Shown here: in pieces, positions 30,182-40,738 of the stretch
Position numbering within the stretch: the first letter of the stretch is position 1
Layout: the number at the start of each line of letters is the position of its first letter
Made by a program: the position numbers and the translations under genes
Origin: Acidobacteriota bacterium
Lineage (GTDB): Bacteria > Acidobacteriota > Thermoanaerobaculia > UBA5066
NCBI GenBank assembly: GCA_029781975.1
Contig: JAKOVQ010000046.1
Location: 1 to 64,000 of the forward strand
Reading direction: 5' to 3'
Length of the DNA stretch: 64,000 nt
Notes under the pieces: model-generated
Database searches by the model: none
What the model was told of the DNA's origin: nothing
What the model saw: only the letters and a program-made list of their open reading frames with translations

Positions 30182-30195
30182 GGCACCCGTCTTGC
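30182..30195 (+). promoter_or_regulatory. Sigma-54-type (-24/-12) promoter of glnA
   Basis: CGGCACCCGTCTTGCGC has the GG of the -24 box at 30182-30183 and the GC of the -12 box at 30194-30195, exactly 10 bases apart as RpoN requires. GGCAC and TTGC are consensus; the flanking T and A/T are not. The start of transcription would be near 30207, giving a 105-base leader. Confidence 0.55.
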
Positions 30196-30311
30196 GCACA
30201 GAATCGGAAGGCCGGGTCCCCCGCGGTCCCGGCCCGCCGGACGGCTCCGGCCCGGACGAGAGGACCTCACCCGCACGACCAGAACCCGGAACGGAAGCGA
30301 GAGGAGAAGGA

Positions 30312-31724
30312 ATGACCCCGAAAGAAGTGATCGAGTTCATGAAGGCCCAGGGAGCGAAGGCGGTCGATTTCAAGTTCAACGACTTCCTCGGGATCTGGCA
30401 GCACTTCACGACGCCGCCGAACGAGATCGAGGAGTCGGTGTTCGAGGAGGGGCTCGGCTTCGACGGGTCGTCGATCCGCGGCTGGCAGCCGATCCACGCC
30501 AGCGACATGCTGGTCATGCCCGACCCCGACACCGCGGTCATGGATCCGTTCACCAAGGACCCGACTCTCTCCCTCATCTGCAACATCGTCGACCCCATCA
30601 CGCGCCAGGAGTACAGCCGCGACCCGCGCAACATCGCGCGCAAGGCGGAGGCCTACCTCAGGTCCACCGGCATCGGCGACACCGCGAACTTCGGCCCCGA
30701 GCCCGAGTTCTTCATCTTCGACGACATCCGCTACGGGCAGGACCAGCACAGCGGCTTCTACTTCCTCGACTCGATCGAGGGGCAGTGGAACACCGGGCGC
30801 GACGAGAAGCCGAACCTCGGCTACAAGCCGCGCTACAAGGAGGGCTACTTCCCGGTCCAGCCGACCGACAGCCAGCACGACATCCGCCAGGAGATGGTCC
30901 TGACGATGGAGCAGCTCGGCTACCACGTCGAGCGGCAGCACCACGAGGTCGCCACCGCCGGCCAGGCGGAGATCGACATGCGGTTCCTGCCGCTCGTGAA
31001 GATGGCGGACGCGCTGATGTGGTTCAAGCACGTCTGCAAGAACGTCGCGCACCGCAACGGCAAGACCGTCACCTTCATGCCGAAGCCGGTCTTTGGAGAC
31101 AACGGCAGCGGCATGCACGTCCACCAGAGCATCTGGAAGGGGGGCAAGCCCCTCTTCGCGGGCGACGGGTACGGAGGCATGAGCGAGCTGGCGATGCACT
31201 ACATCGGGGGGATCCTCAAGCACGCCCCCGCCCTGGCCGCGTTCACGAACCCGTCGACGAACAGCTACCGCCGGCTCGTCCCGGGCTTCGAGGCCCCGGT
31301 CAACCTGGCCTACTCCAGCCGGAACCGGAGCGCGGCGATCCGGATCCCGATGTACAGCCCCAGCCCGAAGGCCAAGCGGATCGAGGTCCGCTTCCCCGAC
31401 CCGACCGCGAACGGGTACATCGCCTTCGCGGCGATGCTGATGGCCGGCCTCGACGGGATCCAGAGCCGCCTCGACCCGGGCCAGCCGCTCGACAAGGACA
31501 TCTACTCGCTCAGCCCCGAGGAGCTGAAGGACGTGCCGGGGATGCCCGCGAGCCTCGACGAGGCCCTCGGGAACCTGAGGAAGGACCACGAGTTCCTCCT
31601 CAAGGGCGACGTCTTCACCGAGGACGTGATCGAGACCTGGATCGACTACAAGATGTCGGCCGAGGTCGCCGCGATGCGCCTCCGCCCGCACCCGCACGAG
31701 TTCGCCCTCTACTTCGACGCCTGA
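30312..31724 (+). CDS. glnA: Glutamine synthetase type I
   Basis: The 470-residue enzyme has [10 protein letters not shown] near residue 52, FGPEPEFF near 127, [12 protein letters not shown] near 264, [13 protein letters not shown] near 315 and NRSAAIRIP near 338. It condenses glutamate and ammonia to glutamine in the cytosol as a dodecamer. Tyr398 in [11 protein letters not shown] aligns with the adenylylated tyrosine of GSI-beta enzymes, so activity should be controlled by covalent AMP. That fits the convergent glnE-like gene. GAGGAGAAGGA precedes the ATG. A sigma-54-type promoter lies upstream. Confidence 0.97.
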
Positions 31725-31788: not shown

Positions 31789-34700
31789 TCAGGCCAGGAG
31801 CCGCGCCGAGAGCTCCTGCACGGCGGCGGCCGCGTTCGTCATCTCCTCCTTCAGCCGGGCGACGTCGCTCCCGTAGGTGAGGCGGCGGGCGAGGTACGAG
31901 AACTCCTCGCTCCCGTACGGGGGGATCGTCACGTCGCGCGCGTTGCCGCGGACGACGCGGAGCGCCTCGACGAGGCTCCTGAGGAACGACTGTGCGGCGA
32001 CGAGCCTCTCGTGGTCCTCGGTCCCCAGCCTCCCGGCGGCCGCCAGGCCGGCCATCGCCTCGCGGGTGTTGGCGCGCCGGACGCCCGGGTCGTCCCGGCC
32101 GTGGCGCAGCTGGAGGAGCTGGACGAGGTACTCCACGTCGACGAGCCCCCCCGGGCTGAACTTCGGGTTGAAGGTGCCGCCGGCCACCAGCTGCCTCACC
32201 TGCTTCTCCCGCATCGCGCGGATCGAGGCGACGTCCGGCGGCTCGCCCTCGTAGACGAGCGCGTCGCGCAGGGAGACGAGCCGGCGCCCCAGCTCCGCGT
32301 CGCCGGCCAGGGGCCTCAGCCGGATCAGCGCCTGCCGCTCGTAGTCCCAGGCGGGTCCCCCGCGGGCGTAGTAGCGGCGGAACGCGTCGAGGGAGACGGC
32401 CATGCTGCCGGCGCCGCCGTAGGGCCGGAGCCTGAGGTCGATCTCGAAGACCCCTTCCCGCCTGGACCGGATCGCCGCGACAAAGGACCTCACGAGGCGC
32501 TCGAAGTGCTCGGCGTTCGTCAGGCGCTGGGGGCCGTCGGTCTCCCCTTCCCCCTCGTAGACGAAGAGGAGCTCGATGTCGGACGCGAAGCCCATCTCGC
32601 GGCCCCCCGCCTTGCCGAGGGCCGAGACCGCCATGGGACAGGGGGACCCGTCGACGAGCCGCGGCCGGCCGTGCGCGGCGACGAGCTCCCGCTCGCACTC
32701 CTCGAACGCGGCCTTGACGACGATCTGGGCGAGGTCGGAGAGCTCCTCGCCGAACTGGGCGATGTCGGCGGTGCGGCCGAGGATGTGGCGCATGTCGATC
32801 CGGAAGAGCTCCCGGTCCTTGAACGCGTTCAGCGCGTCCCGCCACGAGGCCGCGCCGGCGGCCTCCGGCTCCGCCGTCCTCCCGTCCCCGGAATCCCCCC
32901 CGGCCTCCCGCGCGGAGCGGATCGCGGAAGCGAGGTCGCGCTCCAGCTCCGCGGCCGGCCGGGGGGCCGCGAGGACGTCGACGTCCTTGACGATCGGGAA
33001 GAGGTTGGCGTGCTGCATCCTCAGGAAGTCGAGCCAGAGGAAGTCGCTGACGCCCAGGAGCCGGGCGAGGGCCTCGAGCACCTTCGGGCTCTCGAGGGAA
33101 GCGAGCTCGTCGGGCCAGTCGGGCCGCGCGAAGAGCTGGCCGAGGAAGTCCCCGAAGTGGAGGAGGGCCGACTCCGGGTTGGGGGAGCGGGGGAGGATGT
33201 GCGTGAAGTGCTTGATCAGGACCGTCGCGGCGCGCAGCTCCCGCAGCCGCGCGGGGGAGGTGATCTTCGCCCCCGAGGCGTCGGTCACCCAGAGCGTGTC
33301 CCGCACCCGCATCCCGGCGGACGCGGCGGTCAGGCGCCAGATCGAGACCTTCCCGAGGGCGAGGGCGTTCGTCAGCTCGTAGAGGAAGCCGGTGGTGTCG
33401 GGGGCGTCGATCCTGAGGACCGTGTAGCCCCCGGAGCCCTCGTTGTCGATCTCGATGTCGACGGGGTAGAGCGGCGTCGCCGCGACGGCGAGCGCCTGCT
33501 GGGTCAGCGCGGCGCGGCGCGCGATCTCGCCGCGCGCCTCCCGGTGGCGGCCCTGTCTCACGAGCCGGAAGAGGACCTCGAGGTCCTCCTCGAACCGCTT
33601 CCACGGGTCGGAGAGGGCCTCTCCCCGCAGGGGGCGGACGGTGAAGACGTCGACGAGCTTGCGGCGCGGGTCGGGGCGCCCCGCCGCGGGAGCCGGGACC
33701 GCCGGGCGCGGCCGCCCGGTGAACGGATCGACCGCCCGGCCCCGCTCCGCGCGCCGCGGTGGGGGCTCCTCCGGCGCCGCGACCGGCTCGTACGTGAAGG
33801 CCTCGCCGTGCAGGATGCTGAACCCGTTCGCGTAGAGGAGCCCGCAGATGAGGGACAGCTCTCCCGGGAAGTCCCAGCCGACGATCGTCACGCGCCAGAG
33901 GCCGGGAGGCTCCGGGGTGGCGTCGACCGCCACCAGCCGGCTCTCGTCGAGCCGGTCGGCCAGCTGGGCGTGGCGGCGGATGTCCTCGTCGCCGAAGGTC
34001 TCGGCGTACGACGGGTCCATCCGCGCCGCGTGCTCCTCCGCCCGCGGGCGCTCCGCGGAGGGCGCCTCTGGCCGTTCGGCCGCCGCCGTCCCCGCACCGC
34101 CTCCCAGGTGGCGCAGGTAGACGGCCCTCACGGCGGCCGTGTGCTCGCGGTACCGGGCGAGGAAGCGGGCGCCGGCCCCCTCTCCCTCGAACCCGAGGCG
34201 GCGGGCCAGCGCGTCGAGCGCCGCCTCGTCGTCGGGGAGGGTGTGGGTCTGGCGGTAGTGCATCACCTGAAGGTGGTGCTCGACGGTCCGGAGGAAGACG
34301 TAGCCCTCCTCCAGGACGCGGCCGTCGTCGGCCGGGAGGACGCCGGCGGCCTTCAGCCGCGCGAGCGCGAGCCGCGTGTTGCCGCTCCGCACCTCCGGGC
34401 GCGCCCCGCCGTGGGCGAGCTGCAGGAACTGGGCGACGAACTCCACGTCGCGGATCGAGCCCTCGCCGAGCTTCACCTCCGACGCGGCGAGGCCCTTGCG
34501 GCGGACCTCCCGCTCGGTCAGCTGCCTCATGGCCCGCACCTCGGCGCGCACCGTCTCGGCGCTCGTCGTGAAGAGGAGCGGCTCGACCCCTTCGAGCCCC
34601 TCCGAGGCCGCGCCCAGGTCGCCGGCCACGGGGCGGGCCTTGAGGAGGGCCTGCTTCTCCCAGAGCCGCGCGTGCCGGGCCATGTAGCCCTGCCACGCCT

Positions 34701-35580
34701 CCACCGAGCTGACGAGCGGCCCGGCGTCGCCCCACGGGCGGAGCCGCATGTCGACGCGGTAGAGGAAGCCCTCCGCGGTCGGGCGCCCGAGCGCCTCGAT
34801 GAGCCGCTCGCCGAGCTTCCAGTACGCGGGGGCGTCGGCGCGCGCCAGGAAGAGGAGGTCGATGTCCGAGCTGTAGTTCAGCTCGCGTCCCCCCAGCTTC
34901 CCCATCGCGACGACCCCGAAGCCCGAGGCGTTCCGGCCCGACTCCCGCTCGGCGACGGCGAGGGCGGCTTGGACGAGGCCGTCGGCGAGGCTCGACAGCT
35001 CGACGGTGACCGTCTCGAGGTCGAACAGGCCCAGGAGGTCGCTCGCCCCGATCCGGAGGAGCTCGAGCCTCTGGTAGCGCCGGAGGGCGTCGAGGTCCTC
35101 CTCGACCGAGCCCCGGCCCGGGAGCGCCCGCCGGGCCTCGGCCGCGACCTGCGCGGCCGGCTTGCGCGCGGCGAGGCGCCGGGGCTCCACGAGGCGGGCG
35201 AAGGAATCCGGGTGCCGGAGGAGGATCTCCGAGAGGAAGCGGCTCCCGGCGAAGAGGGTGACGAGGATCTGGACGGCGCGCGGGTGCTCGCGCAGGTGCC
35301 GGAGGAGGGTCGTCCGGTCCGGAACGCTCTGGAGGAACCGGTCGAGGGCGACGAGGACGCCGTCGGGGCCCGCGGCCTTCGCGAGCGCCGAGACGAGGTG
35401 CGGGAGGACGCCCGCCAGGGCGAGCCGCTCGGGCGGCCCGTGGGCCATTCGCCGAAGGGTGACGTGCGCCGCGCGCCAGTCGGCGAACCCGGCGGGCGCG
35501 AGGAGCCGGCGCACCTCCTCGTCCGCCTCCGCCTCCGGCGCGAAGAGGACCCGCGCGGTCTCGTGGGCGTGACGGGTCAC
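31789..35580 (-). CDS. glnE: GlnE-type glutamine synthetase adenylyltransferase/deadenylylase with internal ACT pair
   Basis: This 1263-residue protein is about 300 residues longer than typical GlnE (about 950). The N-terminal half has MGKLGGRELNYSSDIDLLF (Asp239, Asp241) and YRVDMRLRPWG (Asp277). The C-terminal half has LGKAGGREMGFASDIELLF (Asp1001, Glu1003) and EIDLRLRPYGG (Asp1048). Between them lie two ACT-like segments: LWRVTIVGWDFPGELSLICG from residue 561 and GYTVLRIDAPDTTGFLYELT from 718. A Pro/Arg-rich loop and a DVFTVRP strand separate them, the layout of the glutamine-sensing end of GlnD. The enzyme should add or remove AMP on GlnA Tyr398 in response to glutamine. Asp-to-Glu at 1003 is odd. 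The GTG start has TATGAT 9 bases upstream. Confidence 0.88.
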   Translation of the reverse strand: MTRHAHETARVLFAPEAEADEEVRRLLAPAGFADWRAAHVTLRRMAHGPPERLALAGVLPHLVSALAKAAGPDGVLVALDRFLQSVPDRTTLLRHLREHPRAVQILVTLFAGSRFLSEILLRHPDSFARLVEPRRLAARKPAAQVAAEARRALPGRGSVEEDLDALRRYQRLELLRIGASDLLGLFDLETVTVELSSLADGLVQAALAVAERESGRNASGFGVVAMGKLGGRELNYSSDIDLLFLARADAPAYWKLGERLIEALGRPTAEGFLYRVDMRLRPWGDAGPLVSSVEAWQGYMARHARLWEKQALLKARPVAGDLGAASEGLEGVEPLLFTTSAETVRAEVRAMRQLTEREVRRKGLAASEVKLGEGSIRDVEFVAQFLQLAHGGARPEVRSGNTRLALARLKAAGVLPADDGRVLEEGYVFLRTVEHHLQVMHYRQTHTLPDDEAALDALARRLGFEGEGAGARFLARYREHTAAVRAVYLRHLGGGAGTAAAERPEAPSAERPRAEEHAARMDPSYAETFGDEDIRRHAQLADRLDESRLVAVDATPEPPGLWRVTIVGWDFPGELSLICGLLYANGFSILHGEAFTYEPVAAPEEPPPRRAERGRAVDPFTGRPRPAVPAPAAGRPDPRRKLVDVFTVRPLRGEALSDPWKRFEEDLEVLFRLVRQGRHREARGEIARRAALTQQALAVAATPLYPVDIEIDNEGSGGYTVLRIDAPDTTGFLYELTNALALGKVSIWRLTAASAGMRVRDTLWVTDASGAKITSPARLRELRAATVLIKHFTHILPRSPNPESALLHFGDFLGQLFARPDWPDELASLESPKVLEALARLLGVSDFLWLDFLRMQHANLFPIVKDVDVLAAPRPAAELERDLASAIRSAREAGGDSGDGRTAEPEAAGAASWRDALNAFKDRELFRIDMRHILGRTADIAQFGEELSDLAQIVVKAAFEECERELVAAHGRPRLVDGSPCPMAVSALGKAGGREMGFASDIELLFVYEGEGETDGPQRLTNAEHFERLVRSFVAAIRSRREGVFEIDLRLRPYGGAGSMAVSLDAFRRYYARGGPAWDYERQALIRLRPLAGDAELGRRLVSLRDALVYEGEPPDVASIRAMREKQVRQLVAGGTFNPKFSPGGLVDVEYLVQLLQLRHGRDDPGVRRANTREAMAGLAAAGRLGTEDHERLVAAQSFLRSLVEALRVVRGNARDVTIPPYGSEEFSYLARRLTYGSDVARLKEEMTNAAAAVQELSARLLA

Positions 35581-38405: not shown

Positions 38406-39716
38406 TCACGCGGGGCGGACGCAGCGGAACTTCGAGAAGACGTAGCCGTAGTGGACCTGGAACCAGTTCCTGAAGCTCCGCCTCACGAGCCGCCGGTCGG
38501 TCGCCCACGAGGCGCCGAGGAGGACGACGTGCCGCCCGTCGAAGAAGTCGGCGGAGTAGCCCGGGTAGCGCGCGAGCGGCCGGAAGCCGGGGAAAGGGCC
38601 GAATTCGGTGGAGGTCCATTCCCATCCGTTCCCGACGAGCTCCTCCACGCCCCAGGCGCTCGCCCCGGCGGGGTGCGACCCGACGGGGACCGGGTTCCAG
38701 GAGACGAACCCCAGGTTCCCGTGGCGCGGAGCGGGGGGCTCGTCTCCCCAGGGGTGCTCGCGGAGGGCCCCGGAGGGAGTCCCGAAGGCGGCGCGGTGGA
38801 GCTCGGCCTCGGTCGGGAGGCGCCCTCCCGCCCATCGCGCGTAGGCGGCGGCCTCGCACTGCGTCACCGACGCCGGCCACCCGGCCGCCCTCTCGAACGG
38901 GATCTCCTCGAGAAGGGCCTTCACGGTCCGGCCCGCGGGACCCGTGCGCCACGTCGGCGGGGCGGGGTCGCCGCGCCGCGAGAGCCACGCCCAGGCGTCG
39001 TCGGACCAGAGGTCGCGGCGGCGGTAGCCGCCCGCCTCGACGAAGGCCTCCATCTGACGGTTCGTCACGGGGGTGGCGTCGATCGTGAACGCGTCGACGG
39101 GGACGCGCAGCTCCGGATGCTCGTTGTCCCACCGGAAGGCGCCGTCGCGCGGGGCGCCGAGGAGCGCCTGGCCCGCCGGGACCCGGACGGCGAGCGGGGC
39201 GCCGGCGCCCGCCCCGGCGGGGAAGGGGCGCGGCGGGGGGAGCCAGGCCGGGCGGAGCTTCCGCTCCGCGGGGAGCGCCTGGACCATGTAGAGGAGCGTC
39301 TCGTGGTGCATCAGCTCGTGCTCGAGCACCATCGGGAGGACCTCCTCGACCGCGGGGGTGGAGGGAAACGCGCGGACCTCCTCGCGGACCCGGTCCCGGT
39401 ACGCGAGGACCTCGCGGAGCGGCGGCCAGCCGGCGGGATCTTCCCGGGGCGCCTCCCCGTCGTCCGGCGGGTCGATGCCGCGCTCGAAGAGCGCGTCGAG
39501 GGAAGGGGCGAACGACGGCCGCCCGAGGACGCCGCGCCCGAGGTGGTTCCAGGCGAAGGCGGGGAGGTGCCCCACGTAGAAGAGGAAGGGCTGTCTCAGG
39601 GCGATCGGCCGGGCGAGGAGGGCGTCGCCCGCCACGAGGGAGAAGATCGCGTCGGAGCGCGCCCAGGCGGCCTCGAGCGCCGCCCGGGTCGAGGCCGCTC
39701 CCGGCCCGACGGTCAC
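38406..39716 (-). CDS. egtB: Ergothioneine sulfoxide synthase EgtB
   Basis: The 436-residue enzyme joins a DinB-like domain to an FGE-sulfatase domain. Iron ligands are visible as His50 in YVGHLP, and His133 and His137 in LEHELMHHE, spaced as in characterised EgtB. The C-terminal part has PVTNRQMEAF, GGRLPTEAEL, NGWEWTSTEFGPFPG and RCVRP. It forms the C-S bond between hercynine and a thiol donor with oxygen. The GTG start overlaps the egtD stop (GTGA), so the two are coupled. EgtA/EgtC are not adjacent, so cysteine may be the donor, which is an inference. Confidence 0.9.
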   Translation of the reverse strand: MTVGPGAASTRAALEAAWARSDAIFSLVAGDALLARPIALRQPFLFYVGHLPAFAWNHLGRGVLGRPSFAPSLDALFERGIDPPDDGEAPREDPAGWPPLREVLAYRDRVREEVRAFPSTPAVEEVLPMVLEHELMHHETLLYMVQALPAERKLRPAWLPPPRPFPAGAGAGAPLAVRVPAGQALLGAPRDGAFRWDNEHPELRVPVDAFTIDATPVTNRQMEAFVEAGGYRRRDLWSDDAWAWLSRRGDPAPPTWRTGPAGRTVKALLEEIPFERAAGWPASVTQCEAAAYARWAGGRLPTEAELHRAAFGTPSGALREHPWGDEPPAPRHGNLGFVSWNPVPVGSHPAGASAWGVEELVGNGWEWTSTEFGPFPGFRPLARYPGYSADFFDGRHVVLLGASWATDRRLVRRSFRNWFQVHYGYVFSKFRCVRPA

Positions 39717-40738
39717 GGCCGCCCGGGGCCCTCGGCCCCGCCGGTGCGGCGGCGCAGGAGCGCCGAGGCGAAGAGGGAGTCGGGGTCGGTGTACCACCCC
39801 TCGAGGACGAGGCCGGTCCCCGCGCAGAGCGCCTCGAAGGAGGCCCGCGTGTACTTGCACGAGATCTCGGTCCGGATCTCGTCCCCCGCGCGGAACGCCA
39901 GGTCGAGCCCGGCCGCCGGCACCTTCACCCGGAGCGGGCGGAGAGCCCTCAGGCGCATCTCGATCCAGGCGGCCTCCGCGTCGTAGAACGCGACGTGCTC
40001 GAAGGCCTCCGGGTCGAAGTCGGCGCCGAGCCGGTCGTTCACGACGCGGAGGACGTTCCGGTTGAACTCCGCGGTGACGCCCGCGGCGTCGTTGTAGGCC
40101 GCGTGGAGGCGGGCCGGGTCCTTGACGAGGTCGAGGCCGACGAGGAAGCCGTCTCCCGGCTCGAGCTGGCGGGCGACGGAGCCCAGGAAGGCGGGGACCT
40201 CGTCCGGGTGGATGTTCCCGACGGTCCCGGCCAGGAAGAGCGCGAGCCGGGAGCCCCCCGGGCCGAGCGCCGGGAGGTCCTCGAGGAAGTCGCCGGCGAC
40301 GGCGCGCACCGAAAGGCCCGGGTAGTCGGCGGCGAGGCGCTCGGCAGAGCTCGCGAGGACCTCCTCGGAGATGTCGAGGAGGACGCACCGGGAGAGGAGG
40401 CCGCGCGAGGCCATCGCGTCGAGGAAGAGCCGGATCTTGCGCCCCGTCCCCGAGCCGAGCTCGCAGAGCTCGCGCGGCCTCACGGCGTCGATCACCTCCC
40501 CGGCGATCTTCTCGAGGATCGTCTCCTCCGTCCGCGTCTGGTAGTACTCGGGCAGCCGGGTGATCTCGTCGAAGAGGGCGCTCCCCCTCTCGTCGTAGAA
40601 GTACTTGCAGGGGAGGGAGGGGAGCGGGCGCTGCGAGAGGGACGCGCGCACCTCGGCGGCCATCCTCGCGCGGGCATCCGCCGTGGCCCTCGGGCGGTCG
40701 ATCCGGGCCGCCTCGCGAGACCTCTGTGCCCCAACCAT
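39713..40738 (-). CDS. egtD: Histidine N-alpha-methyltransferase EgtD
   Basis: The 341-residue SAM-dependent enzyme has the family signature KYFYDERGSALFDEITRLPE near residue 45 and YQTRTEE just after. SAM motif I ELGSGTGRKIRLFL lies near 93, and FLAGTVGNIHPDE near 167. It trimethylates histidine to hercynine, the first step of ergothioneine biosynthesis. TAGACT ends 6 bases before the ATG, suggesting a leaderless egtD-egtB transcript. All expected motifs are intact. Confidence 0.93.
   Translation of the reverse strand: MVGAQRSREAARIDRPRATADARARMAAEVRASLSQRPLPSLPCKYFYDERGSALFDEITRLPEYYQTRTEETILEKIAGEVIDAVRPRELCELGSGTGRKIRLFLDAMASRGLLSRCVLLDISEEVLASSAERLAADYPGLSVRAVAGDFLEDLPALGPGGSRLALFLAGTVGNIHPDEVPAFLGSVARQLEPGDGFLVGLDLVKDPARLHAAYNDAAGVTAEFNRNVLRVVNDRLGADFDPEAFEHVAFYDAEAAWIEMRLRALRPLRVKVPAAGLDLAFRAGDEIRTEISCKYTRASFEALCAGTGLVLEGWYTDPDSLFASALLRRRTGGAEGPGRP

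Follow-up and report, generated by a model that had tools for sequence, protein, structure and literature searches.

Does the enzyme that adenylylates glutamine synthetase (GS) in some Acidobacteriota carry a glutamine sensor of its own? The question is raised by a glnE gene in the stretch of DNA that we analysed, the first 64,000 nucleotides of contig JAKOVQ010000046.1 from assembly GCA_029781975.1 (hereafter the window; its genome is G000). The product of this gene, which we call GlnE-ACT, holds a pair of ACT domains of the type found at the C-terminus of GlnD between its adenylyl-removing (AR) and adenylyltransferase (AT) halves. The GlnD-PII-GlnE-GS cascade is a textbook two-cycle signalling system, and a first-cycle sensor inside the second-cycle enzyme would show a route to shortening such a cascade. 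Judged by alignment, the GlnD-type ACT pair with its lead-in helices replaces the central linker of GlnE, and we think it probable that the protein is a bifunctional GlnE with this pair as its central regulatory stretch, likely responding to glutamine in its action on the neighbouring GlnA.

The reading frame of glnE-ACT runs uninterrupted along the reverse strand (31789-35580). Pfam recognises the GlnE nucleotidyltransferase domain (PF03710) twice, each copy followed by one of two helical GlnD_UR_UTase domains, and the protein scores 509.9 bits against the NCBIfam GlnE equivalog PRK11072 (NF008292), above the cut-off of 487. An earlier note, made from the letters of the window alone, had recognised both GlnE halves; these models confirm them, with the catalytic motifs moved by one residue, to 238-244 (SDIDLLF) and 1000-1006 (SDIELLF). 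Against the GlnD model TIGR01693, GlnE-ACT reaches 79.6 bits, below the cut-off of 519.4; it has no Pfam match to the HD (uridylyl-removing) domain, and GlnD models align to its nucleotidyltransferase and ACT parts only. Alignment with ordinary GlnEs places Asn before the catalytic motif of the N half and Gly before that of the C half, residues specific to AR and AT domains, respectively (PMC4454073). In a tree of halves, N and C halves separate with a support of 95, both window halves fall on the expected sides, and the N half of GlnE-ACT clusters with its counterparts in ordinary GlnEs. From these class residues and the tree of halves it follows that AR comes first and AT second, as in E. 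coli.

One feature departs from this picture. The catalytic motif, G-x11-D-x-D, reads D-x-D in the N half and D-x-E in the C half of the window's protein; over this region of the AT half (residues 995-1006; window 32563-32598), all five aligned GlnE-ACT proteins have D-x-E, and all 17 ordinary acidobacterial GlnEs have D-x-D. This pattern speaks for the C half being no working adenylyltransferase, with the protein only removing AMP or regulating another target. We consider this highly improbable, given that the nucleotidyltransferase superfamily accepts Glu as a metal ligand at this site, that the third acid (DLRLRP) is retained, and that the neighbouring GlnA keeps its substrate tyrosine. By all features tested save the D-x-E of the C half, the sequence is that of a GlnE and not of a GlnD.

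The stretch between the halves is where GlnD comes in. When the whole protein is searched against NCBIfam, GlnD models match residues 509-785, with positions 615-844 out of the 850 in the GlnD model aligned to them, and the isolated 289-aa middle piece is matched by GlnD models at 5e-20 and 7e-12. A profile of six inserts aligns with GlnD C-termini and free-standing ACT pairs over 231 columns (E 6.5e-19), from the helical lead-in of ACT1 through the end of ACT2 and with the Pro/Arg-rich loop as a gap, and plain tblastn with ACT2 finds alphaproteobacterial matches at ~39% identity, one of them annotated as a PII uridylyltransferase. These results bear out the proposal of two GlnD-like ACT segments, which start at residues 563 (RVTIVGWD) and 720 (TVLRIDAPD), and the loop was located in the first of them, as had been claimed. 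The comparison with ACT profiles and GlnD C-termini suggested in the earlier note succeeded for GlnD but not for generic Pfam ACT models, with which the window's protein reaches 18.4 bits against a cut-off of 27; two relatives, at 32.9 and 27.2 bits, exceed the cut-off of ACT_ACR9_3rd (27 bits). The description of the pair as inserted is accurate as to its place between the halves, but alignment with the 17 ordinary acidobacterial GlnEs shows that the segment occupies the place of the short helical AR-AT linker, for which replacement is the better term. A central regulatory domain of E. coli GlnE has been described at the place corresponding to this linker (PMC12409994).

Structure prediction agrees with this assignment. 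An AlphaFold model of residues 510-797, built from two sequences only, contains two ACT-type beta-alpha-beta-beta-alpha repeats with a disordered ACT1 loop (mean predicted local distance difference test score, pLDDT, 67.8; predicted template-modelling score, pTM, 0.62); in a longer model, also from two sequences, ACT2 is poorly predicted, and the shorter model is the better one. Structure comparison matches the segment to the ACT regions of large glutamate dehydrogenase, aspartate kinase, CASTOR1 and threonine deaminase, which speaks to fold and not to ligand; aspartate kinase and CASTOR1 are amino-acid-sensing ACT pairs.

Two possible origins of the ACT pair were rejected. Large glutamate dehydrogenase ranks top in both Foldseek and VIA-align (Z 11.2, 130 residues), but no glutamate dehydrogenase family was matched by sequence, and the two share a fold only. 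Read-through fusion of adjacent glnE and glnD genes, which are convergent neighbours in several Acidobacteriota, is excluded as a direct route because the pair is located centrally in GlnE. As for the donor, the ACT tree gives a single GlnE-ACT clade without placing it firmly relative to GlnD or to the free-standing ACT pairs. Free-standing ACT-ACT proteins of ~270 aa and of the GlnD C-terminus/ACR11 type are encoded in Acidobacteriota at L131:3007-3807, L132:2995-3882 and L133:2598-3434.

The systematic search for the GlnE-ACT layout covered Acidobacteriota. Of 149 sampled genomes of the phylum, only members of the window's class showed the layout. Within that class, 148 genomes were searched and any GlnE was found in 24, in each case GlnE-ACT. 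These are G000, two others from its family, at 60 and 66% identity, and 21 from a second family, at ~39%. Within the window's family, 3 of 14 genomes carry it. The match is continuous across the ACT segment in 23 of the 24, and in the remaining genome (G243) the two matches found reach over the AT half but only some of the ACT segment. Recurrence of the layout in 24 genomes at these identities excludes an assembly or reading-frame artefact; G176, a second-family genome that is a single contig, carries GlnE-ACT. The proteins form one clade, with a support of 99 in the ACT tree and of 93 and 100 for the catalytic halves. A pattern scan of GTDB contigs, which reaches close relatives only, had L012 as its sole match, and a PLSDB search returned no full-length match. 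The earlier note knew of no characterised example of this layout; likewise, no GlnE with ACT domains was found in the literature searched, which left out most subscription papers.

The substrate gene is where it was said to be: glnA is the convergent neighbour of glnE-ACT, and its product has the target tyrosine (Tyr398). In an alignment of GS sequences from which a few rows with misread frames were left out, a GS with this tyrosine is present in all seven GlnE-ACT genomes checked. Among genomes of the class that lack GlnE and whose GS could be read, the site is Phe in three, two of them with the NIF type, and tyrosine in G055. This last genome (L140), of the same family, encodes a tyrosine-bearing GSI-beta enzyme, but no GlnE was found in it.

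If GlnE has acquired a sensor, what became of GlnD and PII? GlnD scores above the model cut-off in two of the 24 GlnE-ACT genomes, G182 and G159; none was found above the cut-off in G000, whose assembly is 96% complete, or in any of the 21 sampled second-family genomes. G182 has an intact GlnD, encoded in a nitrogen cluster together with glnA, glnE-ACT, two amtB genes and the gene of a PII with Tyr51 (TESYRGSEYKVEF). The GlnD of G159 (L076:4468-7383, reverse strand) keeps its reading frame and both ACT domains and has lost two motifs: the nucleotidyltransferase acids have changed from SDVD to SSVG and the HD motif from LLHDIGK to LLHVIGK. The other full-length GlnDs scanned keep SDxD. As read from these substitutions, the G159 protein is probably a sensor-only pseudo-enzyme; a search of that genome for a PII with Tyr51 found none. 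Tyr51, the target of GlnD, is absent from every PII found in the eight GlnD-less genomes examined (G000 and second-family genomes).

PII itself was never lost in the GlnE-ACT genomes examined. G000 has two amtB-linked PII genes and PII-like proteins; the two closest to PII each adjoin amtB, and no Tyr51 was found among its PII-type proteins. Of the classical two-cycle cascade, neither GlnD nor a Tyr51 PII was found in G000. Second-family genomes have a single PII gene, without Tyr51, which is the convergent neighbour of glnE in 7/7 genomes checked and comes second in amtB-glnK wherever its surroundings were read. Since PII is kept without Tyr51, the covalent PII signal appears to have been lost while PII itself was retained. 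The suggestion that GlnE-ACT may remove the need for PII is therefore unsupported; that it may remove the need for GlnD is in keeping with the GlnD-less genomes, G000 among them, but the ordinary GlnEs of the phylum are often without GlnD too and E. coli GlnE is itself responsive to glutamine, which leaves replacement of GlnD by the ACT pair as plausible only.

Four PII proteins, L001 and L002 (G000 C14 and C15), L093 and L094, form a subfamily with the T-loop GHGGE..YRG, no Tyr51 and Glu at the position of E. coli PII Gln39, and are amtB-linked where read. The PII-like proteins L003 (G000 C30) and L004 (G000 C25) adjoin what, by sequence, appear to be genes of resistance-nodulation-division (RND)-type efflux pumps.

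Another explanation is that the ACT pair and the basic loop of ACT1 serve chiefly to dock unmodified PII, or GS, as the successor of the old R region. The pair stands in for the central regulatory stretch, a positively charged loop of 41-48 aa is present in ACT1 of every relative examined, and glnE has the PII gene as its convergent neighbour in second-family genomes. However, the loop sequence is poorly conserved, the interaction is putative, and the window's genome has no PII gene adjacent to glnE. On balance, we find docking as the main role rather improbable.

We favour glutamine sensing by the ACT pair. Given its descent from GlnD, the pair would bind glutamine, and the glutamine-bound form may shift the balance on GlnA between AMP addition by the C half and AMP removal by the N half. 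High glutamine would then lead to AMP on Tyr398 and low GS activity, and low glutamine to the reverse, while unmodified PII could still report 2-oxoglutarate and ATP/ADP. Where GlnD and Tyr51 PII are gone, a single cycle would then remain of the two-cycle GlnD-PII-GlnE cascade. A fuller proposal, which we put forward tentatively, as possible rather than probable, is that GS is under one-cycle control in which GlnE-ACT reads glutamine and an unmodifiable PII reads 2-oxoglutarate and energy state, the GlnD-PII cycle having become dispensable and been dismantled stepwise (intact in G182, with a dead GlnD in G159, gone in G000 and the second family).

Several observations weigh against this account. 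G182 has both GlnE-ACT and intact GlnD, which means that gaining the ACT pair did not by itself drive out GlnD. GlnD is missing in 22 of the 35 genomes of the phylum that have an ordinary GlnE and no ACT insert. E. coli GlnE (AT/AR) is already under allosteric glutamine control with no ACT domains (PMC5448240). In actinobacteria, the action of GlnE does not depend on whether GlnK is modified (PMC3612183). Because ordinary GlnEs are often without GlnD and E. coli GlnE responds to glutamine, loss of GlnD needs no ACT pair. In addition, the loop glycine of ACT2 is retained in the window's family only, where beta1-alpha1 reads DTTGFL, compared with DSFMFL in the second family, so that at most ACT1 would bind there in the usual way.

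ACT ligands are diverse, and the pair could sense another amino acid or have become structural, with glutamine acting elsewhere in GlnE. This alternative draws on the missing ACT2 glycine of the second family, on the ACT-less GlnEs of the phylum that cope without GlnD, and on the E. coli enzyme, which senses glutamine without ACT domains (PMC5448240). Against it, the segment descends from a GlnD-type pair including the lead-in helices, and the D-x-P-G loop of ACT1 in the window's protein is retained as D-x-x-G in all relatives examined. We regard it as unlikely, though deserving of serious consideration.

Coordinates of the features discussed, in positions of the window
Feature	Position	Strand	Details
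glnA, type I (GSI-beta) glutamine synthetase	30192..31724	+	convergent to glnE; the ATG at 30312 is the probable start
Codon of the GlnA adenylylation-site tyrosine	31503..31505	+	Tyr398 counting Met
glnE-ACT, bifunctional glutamine synthetase adenylyltransferase/adenylyl-removing enzyme with internal GlnD-type ACT pair	31789..35580	-	1263 aa, GTG start
N-terminal half, AR type	34120..35268	-	residues 105-487; PF03710 and helical GlnD_UR_UTase domain; motif ELNYSSDIDLLF at 238
C-terminal half, AT type	31792..33189	-	residues 798-1263; motif GFASDIELLF at 1000
GlnD-type sensor segment	33190..34053	-	residues 510-797; helical lead-in, ACT1, linker helices, ACT2; in the place of the short helical linker (R region) of ordinary GlnEs
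Pro/Arg-rich loop in the ACT1 beta2-beta3 hairpin	33661..33786	-	residues 599-640; predicted disordered
ACT2	33190..33423	-	residues 720-797; stretch most like GlnD ACT2 (DNE..YTVLRIDAPDTTGFLYELTNAL)

Elsewhere in the window (38406-40738, reverse strand), overlapping open reading frames resemble, by sequence, an ergothioneine-type EgtB (sulfatase-modifying-factor fold) and an EgtD methyltransferase.

GlnE-ACT would allow the need for the PII-modification cycle in glutamine control to be examined. With one GlnD as a sequence query, no solved structure was found for its ACT end, and GlnE-ACT would offer a single-protein way into ACT-based glutamine sensing. GlnE variants have already been employed to engineer ammonia-releasing nitrogen fixers (PMC9249168), in which a self-sensing GlnE could also serve.

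How, then, does GlnE-ACT compare with known systems? With the GlnE of E. coli and the ordinary GlnEs of Acidobacteriota it shares the AR and AT halves, the catalytic motifs (apart from the D-x-E of the AT half), a GSI-beta substrate with the target tyrosine and a score above the equivalog cut-off; it differs from ordinary GlnEs in having the ACT pair for the helical linker, D-x-E in the AT half and a length of ~1165-1263 aa as opposed to ~960-1000. The order of lead-in helices, ACT1, linker and ACT2 is that of the GlnD C-terminus, yet GlnE-ACT lacks a GlnD-type uridylyltransferase and the HD domain, has a basic ACT1 loop, and carries the pair inside GlnE rather than at a C-terminus. Free-standing ACT-ACT proteins, such as the plant ACR11 type and those of some Acidobacteriota, likewise consist of a lead-in and an ACT pair, but are separate proteins with their own branch in the ACT tree. 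Finally, the actinobacterial GlnE/GlnD/GlnK system resembles GlnE-ACT, as proposed here, in that GS adenylylation is not governed by PII modification (PMC3612183); it differs in that, according to the same published work, GlnE and GlnD are separate and both GlnD and Tyr51 are retained.

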